A stretch of DNA of 61,523 nucleotides from an uncultured Methylococcaceae bacterium (GTDB taxonomy: Bacteria > Pseudomonadota > Gammaproteobacteria > Methylococcales > Methylococcaceae), in NCBI GenBank assembly GCA_903859815.1, contig CAIOOA010000154.1, positions 1 through 61,523 of the forward strand, read 5' to 3'. The translations under genes were made by a program, and so were the position numbers. The notes under the pieces were generated by a model. The model was given only the letters and a program-made list of their open reading frames with translations. It was not told the DNA's origin and did no database searches. Shown one piece after another: positions 23,205-28,543 of this stretch (position 1 is its first letter; the number at the start of each line of letters is the position of its first letter).

Positions 23205-24872
23205 ATGGCTCAATACATCTACACCATGAACCGGGTGGGCAAGGTTGTCCCACCCAAGCGCGAAATTCTTCGCGATATCTCCCTTTCTTTCTTCCCCGGC
23301 GCGAAAATTGGCGTGTTGGGGCTTAATGGCTCTGGCAAATCCACGCTGCTACGCATCATGGCCGGGGTGGACAAGGAATTTAACGGCGAGGCTCGCGCCC
23401 AATCCGACATCAATATCGGCTTCCTGTCCCAGGAGCCGCAATTGGACCCCAACAAGACCGTCCGTGAAAACGTTGAAGACGCTCTCTCGCACATCAAGGA
23501 CGCACTGGCCCGACTCGATCAGGTCTATGCCGCCTATGCCGAACCCGATGCCGATTTCGATGCCTTGGCAGCCGAACAGGCCAAGCTAGAATCCATCCTT
23601 CAAGCCAGTGATGGACATAACTTGGAGCGCACCTTGGAAATCGCTGCCGATGCCTTGCGTCTGCCGGACTGGGATGCGGATGTGACCAAGCTCTCCGGGG
23701 GCGAACGCCGCCGCGTCGCCTTGTGTCGTTTGCTGCTGTCCAGCCCGGACATGCTATTGTTGGACGAACCGACCAACCATTTGGATGCCGAATCGGTGGC
23801 ATGGCTGGAGCATTTCCTCCACGATTTCCCCGGAACCGTGATTGCCGTCACCCATGATCGCTACTTCCTCGACAACGTGGCGGGTTGGATTCTGGAACTC
23901 GACCGTGGCTACGGCATTCCATGGGAAGGCAATTATTCGTCTTGGCTGGAACAAAAGGAAAACCGCCTGGAGATTGAAGAAAAGCAGGAAAGCGCACGGA
24001 TGAAGGCCATGAAAGCCGAATTGGAATGGGTGCGATCCAACCCGAAAGGCCGACACGCCAAATCCAAGGCGCGTTTGGCCCGCTTCGATGAATTGTCTTC
24101 GCAAGAAAACCAAAAGCGTAACGAAACCAAGGAAATCTACATCCCCCCCGGCCCGCGCTTGGGCAATGTGGTCGTGGAAGCGGACGGCATTCGCAAAGGC
24201 TTTGGCGACAGGTTGTTGATCGACGACTTGAGCTTCAAACTGCCGCCGGGCGGCATCGTCGGCATCATCGGCCCGAATGGCGCGGGTAAGACGACCCTGT
24301 TCCGCATGATGGCGGGGGTTGAAAAGCCCGATGCCGGCACGATACGCATGGGCGAGACCGTGCAAATTTCCCATGTCGATCAGAGCCGCGACAGCTTGGA
24401 CGACAGCAAAACCGTGTGGGAGGAAATCTCTGATGGACTCGATCTCATCACGGTTGGCACTTACACGACCCCATCACGCGCCTATTGCGGACGCTTCAAC
24501 TTCAAAGGCCAAGACCAGCAAAAGCGCATTGGCGACCTGTCCGGCGGTGAACGCAACCGCGTCCATCTTGCCAAACTGTTGAAGAGCGGCGGCAACGTCT
24601 TGCTGCTGGACGAACCGACCAACGATCTCGACGTGGAAACCCTACGCGCCTTGGAAGAAGCCTTGCTAGACTTCCCCGGTTGCGCCGTGGTCATCTCGCA
24701 TGACCGTTGGTTCCTAGACCGCATTGCCACCCACATGCTGGCTTTTGAGGGCGATAGTAAAGTGGTTTGGTTTGAAGGCAACTATGCCGATTACGAAGCC
24801 GACCGCCACCGTCGCCTAGGCACGGATGCGGACCAGCCGCATAGGCTTAAGTATAAGAAGTTACAAGGTTAA
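23205..24872 (+). CDS. ettA: Energy-dependent translational throttle protein EttA (ABC-F)
   Basis: A 555-residue soluble ABC-F ATPase with two nucleotide domains and no membrane region. Walker A motifs are GLNGSGKST and [12 protein letters not shown] signatures [13 protein letters not shown] and [13 protein letters not shown]; Walker [12 protein letters not shown] and [11 protein letters not shown]. The inter-domain linker region ([22 protein letters not shown]) is the EttA type. EttA binds the ribosomal E site and gates the first elongation step according to ATP/ADP level. Start ATG at 23205. A terminator follows the stop at once. Confidence 0.96.
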
Positions 24873-24878
24873 ATCGAC

Positions 24879-24906
24879 AGGGCGGCTTTTTAGTCCGCCC
24901 TTTCTC
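24879..24906 (+). terminator. Rho-independent terminator after ettA
   Basis: AGGGCGG at 24879-24885 pairs with CCGCCCT at 24895-24901 around a 9-base loop and is followed by TTCTCTT. It starts 6 bases after the ettA stop and separates ettA from the accessory island that begins at 24932. Confidence 0.8.
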
Positions 24907-24931
24907 TTACATGCCCCAGTGAGAAAAACTC

Positions 24932-26041
24932 ATGTCCGAACAACCTGAAGCGCTTGATCTTCCCGTAACACAGCTTGATTTCGATGCTCGCAACCCACGT
25001 TTCATGGATACGTTTGGTAATACAGCACAGCCTGATACCCATGCCATCGAACGTATGCTGGATGAGGAGAATATACATGAGCTAGTGGGTTCGATTGGTC
25101 AACGAGGATATTTTCCTGGCGAACCTTTACTAGTGACACCTAACCCTAAAAGCTCAGGACGGTATATCGTAGTAGAGGGAAATCGTAGGTTAGCGGCCTT
25201 GCGTTTACTTAATGGATTGATAGAAAAGGATAATTTATCCGCATCCTTAATCCGAGTTATCGAACAAGCAGAAATACGTCCAAGTTATGTTTCATGTTTA
25301 TCATTTCCAAAACGCAATGCCATCCTTCGTTATCTTGGATTCCGCCATATATCTGGACCGCGTCGATGGGAACCATTATCAAAAGCCCGTTATCTATCGG
25401 AATTAATTTCCACATTTTATCAAAATTTAAAACTTGAAGAACAACTCCGTGTAGTAGCAAAAGATATAGGAAGCCGTAAAGATTATGCAGCACAATTATT
25501 GACAGCGCTTAAGCTCTATGATTTATCAAAAAATAGAAACTATTTTGGCTTGCAACGTTTATCAGAACATGATATTAGTTTTTCTTTAATTACCACAGCT
25601 TTATCATATAGGGATATTATTGATTTTCTTGGTTTAGAAAGTAGGGAAGACTGTATTGCGCAGAATCTCAGAGAGGACAATTTAAAAGAATTATTTGCTT
25701 GGATGTTTGCTCAAGATCAGCAAGGTGAAACTATTTTAGGCGAATCACGCAACTTGAGACTACTTGCTGCAGTAGTTTCTTCAGATATTGCCTTAGCTGA
25801 ATTGCGTAAGACAGGAGATCTTGATCGAGCCTATGTTTTTACTAGCGGTCCTGCCGAAGCTTTAACGCAATTATTGGATAATGCAGCTACACAATTAACA
25901 GAAAGCAGCGAAATGGTAATTGGTGATGTCACACCAGATGACTCACACTTAGCTCAAATTGATCGAATCCTAAAAATTGCAGATAACCTTCAATTACTCA
26001 TACAACGAGGTATACAGCAACGGAAACGGAGGGAGTTTTAG
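24932..26041 (+). CDS. ParB/Srx-fold domain protein of an accessory (restriction-like) island
   Basis: A 369-residue protein. The N-terminal ~95 residues have the ParB/sulfiredoxin fold: DLPVTQLDFDARNPRF, ELVGSIGQRGYFPGEPLLV and the signature YIVVEGNRRLAALRLL (the GxRRxxA motif at about residues 84-91). The rest is helical with KARYLSELISTFYQNL and a possible helix-turn-helix at KDIGSRKDYAAQLL. ParB-fold domains here need not partition DNA; many bind CTP/ATP or act in defence loci. No ParA gene is near. The stop is 4 bases before the next gene's ATG, so the two form an operon. Both genes are richer in A+T (TTA, AAT codons) than the flanking ettA, suggesting horizontal acquisition. Confidence 0.8.
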   Translation: MSEQPEALDLPVTQLDFDARNPRFMDTFGNTAQPDTHAIERMLDEENIHELVGSIGQRGYFPGEPLLVTPNPKSSGRYIVVEGNRRLAALRLLNGLIEKDNLSASLIRVIEQAEIRPSYVSCLSFPKRNAILRYLGFRHISGPRRWEPLSKARYLSELISTFYQNLKLEEQLRVVAKDIGSRKDYAAQLLTALKLYDLSKNRNYFGLQRLSEHDISFSLITTALSYRDIIDFLGLESREDCIAQNLREDNLKELFAWMFAQDQQGETILGESRNLRLLAAVVSSDIALAELRKTGDLDRAYVFTSGPAEALTQLLDNAATQLTESSEMVIGDVTPDDSHLAQIDRILKIADNLQLLIQRGIQQRKRREF

Positions 26042-26045
26042 GCCC

Positions 26046-27011
26046 ATGACTGAAATTTTGCGTGGTCTAGACATTAAGCCTAGATATTCTTATCCATTTT
26101 TATGGGCAGACTATGTAGAATTGCTAACTCTCTGTGGAGAGTCAAGCTATTTTAGTCGAAGCAATTTGGAAGAGTTACAGCAGGAAGGCGGTGAATTACA
26201 AATTGATGATGAAGATGGAGCCAATTTATCTTCGGCTATGCAGGACGATATCATTGCTAATCAATGGGATGAAATTAAAGTTAAGTTATTACAACGTCAG
26301 TCTACAGTAACGGCATGGCCTTTTCAATTCAAGGGTAACAGTTTACAAAGTGCTTTCGATATCCACAATTCTGCACATCGTCTTTACATGGTATTGCTAC
26401 TTGCTTCTTCATTAAGGCTTTGCCCAAAATCTAGGGTTAACGAAGTTTCAGCAGCTTTGGAAGAAGTGGCTTATCTGTTATTCAAATATATGCTACCCAA
26501 AGGTTGGAGTGTAAAGCCTTTTGGCGCGCATCAAAAAATTGCAGAGGGGTATACGGGGCCTTTACGTAGTAAACTTGAAAAATTGGCTGTAGATATTCAT
26601 GGCACTCTGATGAAACAGGTAGACGATTATGATTCCCGTGATACTGGTGATGGAGGAATCGACGTAGTAGCTTGGGATAGCTTTGGCGATGACCGAGGTA
26701 ATATCCCGGTTATCTTCGCCCAATGTGGATGCTCGCCGAGAGATTGGGAAAACAAACAACTATCGGTTACACCAGCCGCCATAGAATCCCATATTGCAAC
26801 CCAACATCCTGGCGCTGCCTATTACATCACACCTCATGACCTTTCCGCCTCGAATCAAAAATGGGAAAGAGCATCACATATAGCAAAGGTGGTTGTTTTG
26901 GATAGGCATAGGTTGATGCACCTAGCTGAGCGCCACTCAGTGTTGCCAAATCTTCCAACTTGGAAATTTGTTGATGAGGCGATAAACCTTGGCTATCAGC
27001 TTTCTAGTTAA
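26046..27011 (+). CDS. PD-(D/E)XK-like nuclease candidate linked to ParB-like gene
   Basis: A 321-residue protein. The likely nuclease core is near residue 200: G201-D-G-G-I-D206-VVAW, a ~20-residue spacer with PVIFAQCGCS (Q226), and K237 after DWEN. This D ... Q-x ... K order matches the variant PD-(D/E)XK site (GDGGIDVVAW ... QC) that I recognise from restriction-type proteins beside cytosine methyltransferase genes. The N-terminal half is helical and unassigned. The start is the ATG at 26046, not the upstream one at 25977, because it follows the ParB-like stop by 4 bases. It is read towards the methyltransferase remnant at 27228-27536. Catalytic activity is inferred only from the motif. 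Confidence 0.65.
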   Translation: MTEILRGLDIKPRYSYPFLWADYVELLTLCGESSYFSRSNLEELQQEGGELQIDDEDGANLSSAMQDDIIANQWDEIKVKLLQRQSTVTAWPFQFKGNSLQSAFDIHNSAHRLYMVLLLASSLRLCPKSRVNEVSAALEEVAYLLFKYMLPKGWSVKPFGAHQKIAEGYTGPLRSKLEKLAVDIHGTLMKQVDDYDSRDTGDGGIDVVAWDSFGDDRGNIPVIFAQCGCSPRDWENKQLSVTPAAIESHIATQHPGAAYYITPHDLSASNQKWERASHIAKVVVLDRHRLMHLAERHSVLPNLPTWKFVDEAINLGYQLSS

Positions 27012-27227
27012 CAGTCCCTACTTTTTGAAGCCTCGAACAACTGGTTACGTTCATAGTTCGACATGCTCAATACGAATGCTACCCCCTGATTAGCTAAACA
27101 TCGTTTGCACTGAGATAATTAAGCCACGCTTCGCACGGCATGGCGTTGCCAAGAAACAGCTATTAATGGCGTTGTTTGATGGCCTTAAGTCAACTTGCAA
27201 ATCATTGTTCTAATTACCATAAAATAG

Positions 27228-27536
27228 CTATTTATTAATCCGCGTCAAGGCTCTGGCAAACTCCAAATAAAGCGTGTTGATTTTTCTATCAGCTTTGCGA
27301 ACCCCACCTTGACTAAAGCCTTGGCATGGGTAGCAACCCACCAACAACTCGGTGCTAGGAAAAGCATCAATCGCTGCAATATTTCCCAAGCGATAATCAG
27401 TCTCTGCGTGATTGGTAAGATACACATCGCGGGCATAGGGCAGAATGTCACTGGCCATCAGCACATCGAAACCGGCATTGATAATGCCCGCATCAGAGCC
27501 GCCGCAGCCAGAAAAAAGTGAAACAGCAGTGGGCAT
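27228..27536 (-). pseudogene. 5' fragment of a cytosine-5 DNA methyltransferase (Dcm family)
   Basis: 102 residues, clearly the N-terminal third of a C5-methyltransferase: motif I SLFSGCGGSDAG (residues 6-17, the SAM site), the motif II region DILPYARDVYL, and motif IV LLVGCYPCQGFSQGG with catalytic C71. The frame ends abruptly (LTRINK then TAG) where intact relatives continue with the ENV motif. The following ~215 bases on the minus strand hold no methylase motifs VI-X, so the target-recognition domain is deleted, not merely frameshifted. It converges on the nuclease-like gene. The stretch 27012-27227 contains no gene I can identify. Confidence 0.85.
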
Positions 27537-27775
27537 AGTCAGTCATTGAGTAGTTTGTGTCGATTATTCGCCAAATTTATGGTTTGGCTCGACTCTTGGC
27601 TGAACACAACAAACACCTTGCAAAAAAAATTTTATTTAGTGAATTTCTTTTCCCTTCCTTAACAATATGGAATTTGGTGTTGATAATGGCCCAAACAAAC
27701 CATTTCCACTTCTCATAATCTGGGTATTTTGCTAAAATCAGCGAAAATGCTTGGTGATATAGGAGCAGAAACCTC

Positions 27776-28298
27776 TTGAAACCCAATAACGCACTCACTT
27801 ATGTCCGGCAATTATGTTGCCTTGGTTTGGGAAAGGAGGCCGTCATCCCAGAATTATTGCGCTCGGTAAAGGCGGTGATACCTTCAGACAGCAATGTATT
27901 CATAGGATTGGATGAAAACCAATTCCCGGCTTATGCCATTCCCGAATATTTTGTACCCGAAGCCTTGGAAGTTTATACGACAGAAACCGAGAGGTTGCAC
28001 AGCCCGGAACTGATGCTCAGGATATTCAACTGGTTTGATCGGTGTCACCATCGAACATCAAGAACCTATGGCGCTTTTTGTCATGCGGCAACTCAAAGAC
28101 TTTCCACTCTCCGCAACCCAAAGGGACGTGAGCCTAATGCTCGCCCAAAAGCATAGCCACACTGGCATTTCCGAGCGTTTGCATATCAAGCTGACCACCG
28201 TAAAAGACCATGTCAGGAAAATTTACGATAAACTAAATATCCATACCCGCGAAGAACTCATAGCAAGCTTAGGATTGGAGCGTCACAGCTTGCTTTGA
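27776..28298 (+). pseudogene. LuxR-type transcriptional regulator, frameshifted
   Basis: Two overlapping frames make one LuxR regulator. 27776-28156 (frame 2) gives the N-terminal sensor-like part (MKPNNALTYVRQLCCLGLGK ... EVYTTETERLHSPELMLRIF). From about 28025 the similarity moves to frame 3: GVTIEHQEPMALFVMRQL, then the DNA-binding domain (LSATQRDVSLMLAQ, HIKLTTVKDHVRKIYDKL, TREELIAS) ending at 28298. The +1 shift between 28020 and 28040 breaks the protein unless it is a sequencing error or a programmed event; no slippery heptamer is obvious. Ligand and targets are not evident. Confidence 0.75.
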
Positions 28299-28304
28299 CG
28301 CTCC
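28277..28304 (+). terminator. Hairpin overlapping the end of the LuxR frame
   Basis: GGAGCGTCA (28277-28285) pairs with TGACGCTCC (28296-28304) over a 10-base loop, covering the stop codon. There is no clear T-tract, so termination is uncertain. Similar GAGCATCAAAGC... half-palindromes occur near 18607 and 30567, so it may be one member of a short repeat family. Confidence 0.4.
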
Positions 28305-28368
28305 CTTCATACTAAAAAATAAGCGACTTCCACATTCGTGTGAAAACTAGTGAATATTCACCATAAAC

Positions 28369-28388
28369 CGCCCTCCCTAGGGAGGGCG
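28369..28388. repeat. Perfect 20-bp GC-rich palindrome
   Basis: CGCCCTCCCTAGGGAGGGCG, exact self-complement without a loop base, in the 28299-28543 spacer. It could act as a bidirectional terminator or a palindromic repeat. No other signal was recognised in this spacer. Confidence 0.55.
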
Positions 28389-28543
28389 AAAATCCAAAGA
28401 AATTCCCTCATAATATACGCCAAAGAGAAAGCTTAAAGATTTCTCTTGATAGACAGGCCAACAGCCTGAGCATCGCAGGAAACAGCCCTTACGCCATGGG
28501 ACTCAAGTTTCTGCTTCATTTAACTGACTGGGGAGTTACAACA

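Follow-up and report, generated by a model that had tools for sequence, protein, structure and literature searches.

A ParB-fold gene and a variant nuclease gene recur as a pair, usually near DNA-modification genes, and stand beside the methylase remnant of another lineage in a Methylococcaceae contig

The window analyzed here is a stretch of 61,523 nucleotides from an uncultured Methylococcaceae bacterium (contig CAIOOA010000154.1). In it, a gene for a ParB-fold protein is followed, 4 bp after its stop codon, by a gene for a PD-(D/E)XK-like nuclease, and the two face a fragment of a cytosine-C5 (C5) methyltransferase (methylase). Comparison with relatives shows that the ParB-fold protein and the predicted MspJI-like nuclease travel as one unit, usually beside a modification gene whose chemistry differs by lineage. 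The presumed catalytic set is conserved together with the pair, while the modification partners vary and the pair itself undergoes exchange. With moderate confidence, the pair is best explained as the restriction half of a modular restriction-modification-type system, in which cutting of unmarked DNA would be gated by a nucleoside triphosphate (NTP).

All of the loci compared (L-numbers below) were found through the nuclease, from matches in the genome of the window (G000, a draft assembly of 315 contigs), in same-genus genomes (G001–G006), and in phage, plasmid, and sampled-genome records. After 16 near-copies were dropped from 120 loci, 104 distinct loci remained, window included. The ParB-fold gene lies directly upstream of the nuclease gene in 99 of them, as scored by script, and the two are thus found together well beyond the window. 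Three of the five misses are contig edges (L021, L022, and L113), L045 is adjacent by table, and L039 has a short nuclease frame with no ParB detected. A modification gene occurs nearby in 93 of the 104 loci, with the window fragment counted. The restriction-like module proposed by the first-pass annotation, made from the letters of the window alone, is supported. Identities correlate at 0.91 between ParB-fold protein and nuclease, compared to 0.61 between methylase and nuclease (1081 non-independent pairs from 47 modules).

The modification partners fall into several kinds. A C5 gene is present in 68 of the 104 loci (57 convergent, including the window fragment, 10 co-directional downstream, and 1 upstream), a count that includes both the window fragment and a 223-aa frame in L195. 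The other marks are DndC/D/E-like phosphorothioation genes (9/104), Dam-like methyltransferases (8/104), and enzymes with SPPY that are labeled PF01555-type with no base specificity assigned (8/104). Dnd genes were counted up to 4 kb away when they resembled those of L060, and the other marks up to 1.3 kb away. DndC is found in 8 of the 9 Dnd-linked loci and all three genes in 4; NCBIfam models identify DndC, DndD, and DndE in L060 and DndC in L056, L062, and L066. The matches of the L063 DndD-like protein and of the Dam-family proteins in L073 and L083 stay below the curated cut-offs, and Pfam finds N6_N4_Mtase (PF01555) in L078. Six further loci lie too close to a contig edge for a modification gene to be judged. 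In the dnd-linked locus L060, a phosphorothioated-DNA restriction endonuclease gene (NF045808; L060:3919-4791) precedes the pair.

The pair is widespread. Relatives occur in records from Pseudomonadota, Chloroflexi, Bacteroidota, and Clostridium, and one plasmid match consists of a ParB-nuclease pair without a methylase. The nuclease turned up in 5 of 398 sampled genomes of the phylum, one of them G000; the other four all have the ParB-fold gene upstream, and their nearby marks are PF01555-type, C5 (the 223-aa frame), Dam-like, and Dam-like. G000 itself holds two more pairs, on C294 (L138) and C185 (L193), with no modification gene within 4 kb of either by the models used. The C294 nuclease has a canonical QCK, and the C185 pair sits between the genes for formylmethanofuran dehydrogenase subunits B and A.

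The nuclease of the window carries GDGGID at residues 201-206, followed by Q226, W234, and K237. Scans with an alignment of the nuclease yielded 65 genome loci and 40 viral loci. Among 92 aligned nucleases, D202, G204, and D206 are invariant (92/92), Q226 and W234 are each kept in 91, and K237 in 90. L073 is the sole row with QCK and lacks K237, and in L070 the lysine is shifted by one column; the L013 nuclease, which stands outside this alignment, likewise has QCK and no K237. It therefore looks like the catalytic lysine was displaced from the usual QxK position to W..K. The AlphaFold (AF2) model of the protein has a predicted local distance difference test (pLDDT) score of 94.4, and its single confident fold match is MspJI (4f0q; Foldseek expect value (E) 7e-4, probability 1.0, template-modeling (TM) score 0.29). 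By predicted fold and by its D...(D/E/Q)xK set, the protein is a PD-(D/E)XK nuclease in variant form, as was first suspected from the letters. It has no PADLOC or NCBIfam match up to E 1, and in Pfam it reaches only Mrr_cat, below the threshold (E 0.014). The family is not covered by any Pfam model, and Pfam scans found no MspJI-type modification-recognizing domain in the 92 members. In the D14A-type viral contig L122 (5953-9089), about 0.9 kb interrupts the nuclease gene, and the methylase frame is complete.

The ParB-fold protein was modeled as well (AF2, pLDDT 94.0). Its closest folds are KorB, ParB, Spo0J, and Noc (8qa9, 7bm8, 6sdk, and 7ng0; E 6e-7 to 3e-5, with 8qa9 at 6e-7). Boxes I and II align with those of the CTP clamps, the box III region lies outside the alignment, and the EGNRR motif is unchanged in 88 of 88 aligned relatives. 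In its model, the protein is thus a member of the ParB/CTPase fold with predicted nucleotide-binding boxes. According to a survey of this fold, its members include binders of CTP, of ATP, and of GTP, and no dependable rule in sequence predicts which nucleotide is bound (PMC12704722). For this reason, no nucleotide is named here. In PHROGs, both proteins of the pair fall into families of unknown function (ParB-fold protein, phrog_3694, E 6e-94; nuclease, phrog_3984, E 2e-50). A role as the partition gene of a ParABS system was considered and set aside: the neighbors are ettA and the methylase fragment, and no ParA was seen beside the pair by eye, no dedicated ParA search having been run.

The methylase fragment was first taken for the amputated partner of the pair, an idea that the comparisons overturn. 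The fragment has GCGG at residue 10 and the PCQ cysteine at C71, and it matches PF00145 only at profile positions 3-100 of 324, ending before the target-recognition region. Facing C5 genes in relatives are mostly ~307–333 aa long compared to 102 aa in the window. Positions 27235-27539 are 91.5% identical in nucleotides to the methylase of G001 (module G001:C640), and in a tree of 55 methylase DNA fragments, whose bootstrap was not fully settled, the window groups with G001 and G003 (support 100/99). Both of these sister genomes carry a ParB-nuclease-methylase module at the same site downstream of ettA (in G001 on two contigs, one of them cut). Grouping the fragment with the relatives of the window's ParB-fold protein is rejected by the approximately unbiased (AU) test (p 4e-9).

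The restriction genes tell a different history. The nearest relatives of the window pair are found in Comamonadaceae, Lysobacteraceae, and viral contigs, with identities to L014, L020, L023, and L025 of 54–58% for the ParB-fold protein and 45–51% for the nuclease. The nuclease tree, built from 33 rows chosen within the convergent C5 group, places the window in the lineage of its ParB relatives (100/97), and the AU test rejects a grouping with the modules of the same genus (p 3e-5). The conflict between the two trees rules out the fragment as the pair's own methylase. Because the fragment groups with the resident module, and the ParB-fold protein and nuclease with another lineage, the window reads as a mosaic in which the restriction half of one lineage stands beside the fossil of a resident methylase. 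The restriction half was apparently exchanged there: an incoming pair would have replaced that of the resident module, leaving only the N-terminal third of the resident methylase.

Phage modules show such an exchange with complete genes. A protein search gave 11 matches in phage records, and the 4 that were examined contain the same three genes in the same order with a complete facing methylase: phage Wphi (gp98, gp96, and Mth), a P2 record with the same proteins, 12474III, and Pseudomonas phage D14A. Wphi and 12474III are both P2-like phages of E. coli. Their methylases are 98% identical, compared to only 32% for the ParB-fold proteins and 22% for the nucleases, and DNA homology restarts at the methylase stop codon, with one 38-bp match to its left. 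At a cover of 80% or more, 103 of 5426 complete E. coli genomes carry the Wphi-type module, and the listed copies are annotated as ParB N-terminal domain protein, hypothetical protein, and DNA cytosine methyltransferase. Another 36 E. coli genomes have less than 80% cover; the four listed all match the methylase alone, and one that was examined has a divergent pair in the 12474 arrangement beside a 93% identical methylase. The methylase of the Wphi module in L015 (2328-3266) has the Druantia methylase DruM as its best PADLOC match (E 1e-110). Despite the copies in E. coli and the relatives in records from several phyla, the nuclease of the module has no Pfam model. In these modules it can also be tested directly how restriction halves are swapped while the methylase hardly changes.

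The probable mark of the convergent C5 clade is 5-methylcytosine (5mC) in GGCC, and the predicted target of the pair is the same sequence. The closest solved methylase to the module methylases is M.HaeIII (1dct, E 8e-48), which aligns over nearly the full length, including the target-recognition region; this region is strongly conserved across 52 methylases of the clade. HaeIII recognizes GGCC. One phage record labels its methylase copy a BspRI methylase. GGCC is the most depleted of the 256 tetramers in 168 kb of G000 (observed/expected 0.55), as it is in G001 (0.60) and in G002 (0.66), in which P0002 found no nuclease; the carrier G003 has 0.76. This depletion lends weak support to a GGCC target.

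Should both have the same target, the genome could have been shielded by the resident methylase when the new pair arrived, and the truncation of this methylase then raises the question of how the host survives. This puzzle was recognized in the first-pass annotation and it stands. A search of the G000 assembly found no close homologue of the module methylase, the best other match having 35% identity over residues 3-197. Among the frames in the eight loci kept, blastp identities are 26–31% for the near-full-length ones, and none has the PLHP of the module recognition region. The window may therefore be viewed as a natural experiment in which restriction genes were left beside a foreign, broken methylase.

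The coordinates of the locus (Table 1), its motifs and residues, and its lower guanine-plus-cytosine (GC) content were all confirmed from open reading frames and translations. The GC fraction is 0.395 in the ParB-fold gene and 0.421 in the nuclease gene compared to 0.479 in the whole window. No RNA feature reaches gathering scores in 24600-28500. The gene directly upstream is ettA, identified by NF008775.

Table 1. Features of the ParB-nuclease locus in the window.
Feature	Position	Strand	Description
ParB-fold protein	24932-26041	+	369 aa; N-terminal ParB/Srx NTPase-like domain with EGNRR (82-86), then helical domains
PD-(D/E)XK-like nuclease	26046-27011	+	321 aa; presumed catalytic set D206, Q226, and displaced lysine K237 (W..K)
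Spacer	27012-27227	.	No recognizable methylase remnants; ~27031-27114 resembles diverged sequences elsewhere in G000
C5 methyltransferase fragment, N-terminal third, HaeIII-like	27228-27536	-	102 aa; apparent fossil of the resident module type
Variable cargo segment	24873-27717	.	From ettA (stop 24872) to the right flank common to G002

The site downstream of ettA is a hotspot for cargo across the genus (window 24873-27717; L182, L184, and L185). At this site, G002 has DUF2252 and a 1339-aa AAA/NB-ARC-like protein, G005 has a TPR-AAA ATPase and a second ATPase-like gene, and G006 has a similar gene by eye; in G004, the gene next to ettA shows no cargo by eye. In G001, 108 bp on the far side of the methylase form a partial copy of ettA with 80% identity (L139:3903-4010), as if it were the remnant of an insertion. 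In the right flank of the window, a luxR-like gene (by eye; 27776-28298) has a broken frame and is ~0.56 kb shorter than the G002 copy (L182:7689-8732).

In the favored reading, the ParB-fold protein would bind DNA as a subunit switched by NTP; once loaded, it would license the nuclease to cut DNA lacking the local mark. DndI may serve as a model, as a ParB-fold NTPase whose activity is altered by the mark so that self DNA is spared (PMC11662687). The module would then allow direct tests of a ParB-fold switch that stands next to a restriction nuclease. Going further, it is possible, if rather doubtful, that the restriction half is mark-agnostic, i.e., that one family of ParB switch and nuclease reads the absence of whichever mark its neighbor makes and is exchanged while the modification gene stays. 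Such a half would serve C5, Dam-like, and PF01555-type methylation and phosphorothioation alike, which is equally tentative.

Several observations weigh against restriction of unmarked DNA by such a system. Marks are bound to clades: on a quick ParB tree (96 rows, five of them on long branches: L195, L079, L016, L067, and L070), the four kinds require only 4 changes (minimum 3; 86 marked rows), and with "none" as a fifth state 9 changes compared to a shuffled mean of 29.1. Several chemistries are thus used but exchange of chemistry is rare, and the mark-agnostic reading is slightly less likely for this reason. Five distinct pairs with room for a modification gene have none in range (L138, L193, L019, L033, and L065); two of these are in G000 itself, and in L033 the distance to a C5 gene is 3.3 kb. 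Nor does the window copy have a complete modification gene. The sequence link of the nuclease to MspJI is weak (E 0.47 and 1.4), as is the TM-score of 0.29. GGCC ratios overlap between genomes with a P0002-like nuclease (0.55, 0.60, and 0.76) and those with no match (0.66, 0.69, 0.78, and 0.79). Finally, the L014 nuclease weakly matches the PADLOC model mREase_II, a methyl-directed enzyme (E 0.009), which would fit cutting of modified DNA.

This last match, together with the pairs that have no modification gene in range, would suit a type IV-like nuclease that cuts foreign-marked DNA and whose neighboring modification gene is incidental, as would the nearest fold, MspJI, a modification-dependent enzyme. 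Such a role is improbable, as a 5mC-dependent cutter next to a 5mC writer would attack self DNA, and the nearby modification genes of 93 loci are of kinds that track the ParB tree. It is also unlikely, to a somewhat lesser degree, that the pair is a guard or suicide system, in which the mark or the methylase restrains the pair and a phage that blocks or removes either causes the infected cell to be killed. By its ParB domain, the tested system closest to the pair is PD-lambda-5, which is characterized as a compact prophage form of a restriction-modification plus abortive infection (RM+Abi) system (PMC9519451), and this speaks for a guard; the conserved nuclease site and the modification genes suit direct restriction equally well.

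The state of the window copy is a separate matter. There is a serious possibility, somewhat short of probable, that it is a dead or silent relic after exchange and methylase loss, which would be compatible with restriction of unmarked DNA by the family as a whole. Only one third of the methylase is left with no close homologue found elsewhere in G000, and the adjoining luxR-like frame is also broken. Set against this, both frames are intact and hold every column that is invariant in 88 ParB-fold proteins and 92 nucleases, a counterpoint tempered by the fact that the nearest relatives found are only ~50–58% identical. The truncation could instead be an artefact of assembly, with an intact methylase elsewhere or at the locus in part of the population, given that the contig comes from a draft in many pieces and that the junction carries sequence resembling other places in the genome. 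This is very improbable: the junction-like sequences are diverged (75–90% identity over 30–84 bp), which makes a chimeric join there unlikely, and both outer flanks of the window segment lie on a single contig in G002.

None of the libraries and literature covered describes the pair, in line with the first-pass annotation, which had seen in it a candidate for an undescribed system. The open full-text literature gave no description of the pair in the passages found, with supplements, subscription journals, REBASE, DefenseFinder, and preprint servers outside its scope. Passages of PMC5512222 and PMC10853773, which also treat ParB in conflict systems, do not describe it, and the matching passage of PMC11318856, found for a ParB N-terminal domain, is a primer table. 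The pair in the window does not stand beside the complete cognate methylase expected of a type II restriction-modification system, since the fragment has 102 of ~310 aa and comes from another lineage.

PD-lambda-5, to which the pair comes closest among tested systems through its ParB domain, is carried by prophages and described as protecting broadly against phages (Vassallo et al. 2022, PMC9519451; also PMC12629846). PADLOC PD-Lambda-5_A matches the window ParB-fold protein with a best E of 5e-22, and not over the full length: window residues 8-170 align to positions 5-176 of 466. Its partner PD-lambda-5_B is a Dam-like methyltransferase, a kind also used by 8 of the 104 ParB-nuclease loci, while the window has a C5 fragment instead, and PD-lambda-5_B models are not among the 25 PADLOC families shown for that fragment. 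In the PD-lambda-5 loci L219 and L220, the B gene comes immediately after A, with no family nuclease flagged among the reading frames listed, whereas the window has a nuclease gene. With only the first third of the A model aligned and no Dam-like B adjacent, membership in PD-lambda-5 is rejected. In L071 (903-5430), a complete PD-lambda-5 A-B pair (E 2e-38 and 6e-108) lies directly before a ParB-nuclease pair, and in L073 (216-4379) a partial A match and B do so. Given the L071 arrangement and the Dam-like B, the two systems are related and can occur side by side.

ParB-fold proteins were at first considered no standard part of restriction systems, which is not supported: they are parts of the restriction or modification systems GmrSD, SspE, DndI, DndB, and DpdB (PMC12373910, PMC11662687, PMC12839542). 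In DndI, SspE, and GmrSD, a ParB-fold NTPase with a DGQQR motif is fused to an HNH/DUF1524 nuclease, and some GmrSD systems add a second ParB_n gene (PMC11662687, PMC12373910); the window has instead two genes, EGNRR, and a PD-(D/E)XK nuclease. The GmrSD_N match of the ParB-fold protein is below cut-off (E 0.015), and the DndI structure 9jfl matches its model at E 1.4 only. Membership in this group, defined by DUF262 with DGQ(Q/H)R and HNH/DUF1524, is rejected on the sub-threshold GmrSD_N match, the 88 of 88 EGNRR motifs, and the separate nuclease of another fold. The PADLOC candidate PDC-M38A has a ParB-like region that matches window residues 45-358 (E 1e-21). Its model is longer, with 715 positions, and its C-terminal half, presumably an ATPase, matches widely (some match in 134 of 200 genomes); the window nuclease has no PADLOC match.

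The ParB-fold protein shares boxes I and II with the CTP clamps KorB, ParB, and Noc, differing by GNRR in place of GERR and by a two-residue insertion near box I. M.HaeIII is the nearest solved relative of the module methylases; its restriction partner is a single orthodox enzyme that is not known to have a ParB subunit. MspJI, the nearest nuclease fold, aligns with the nuclease profile at GDGG-D and Q, though only at E 1.4, and the window family differs from it by the W..K lysine.

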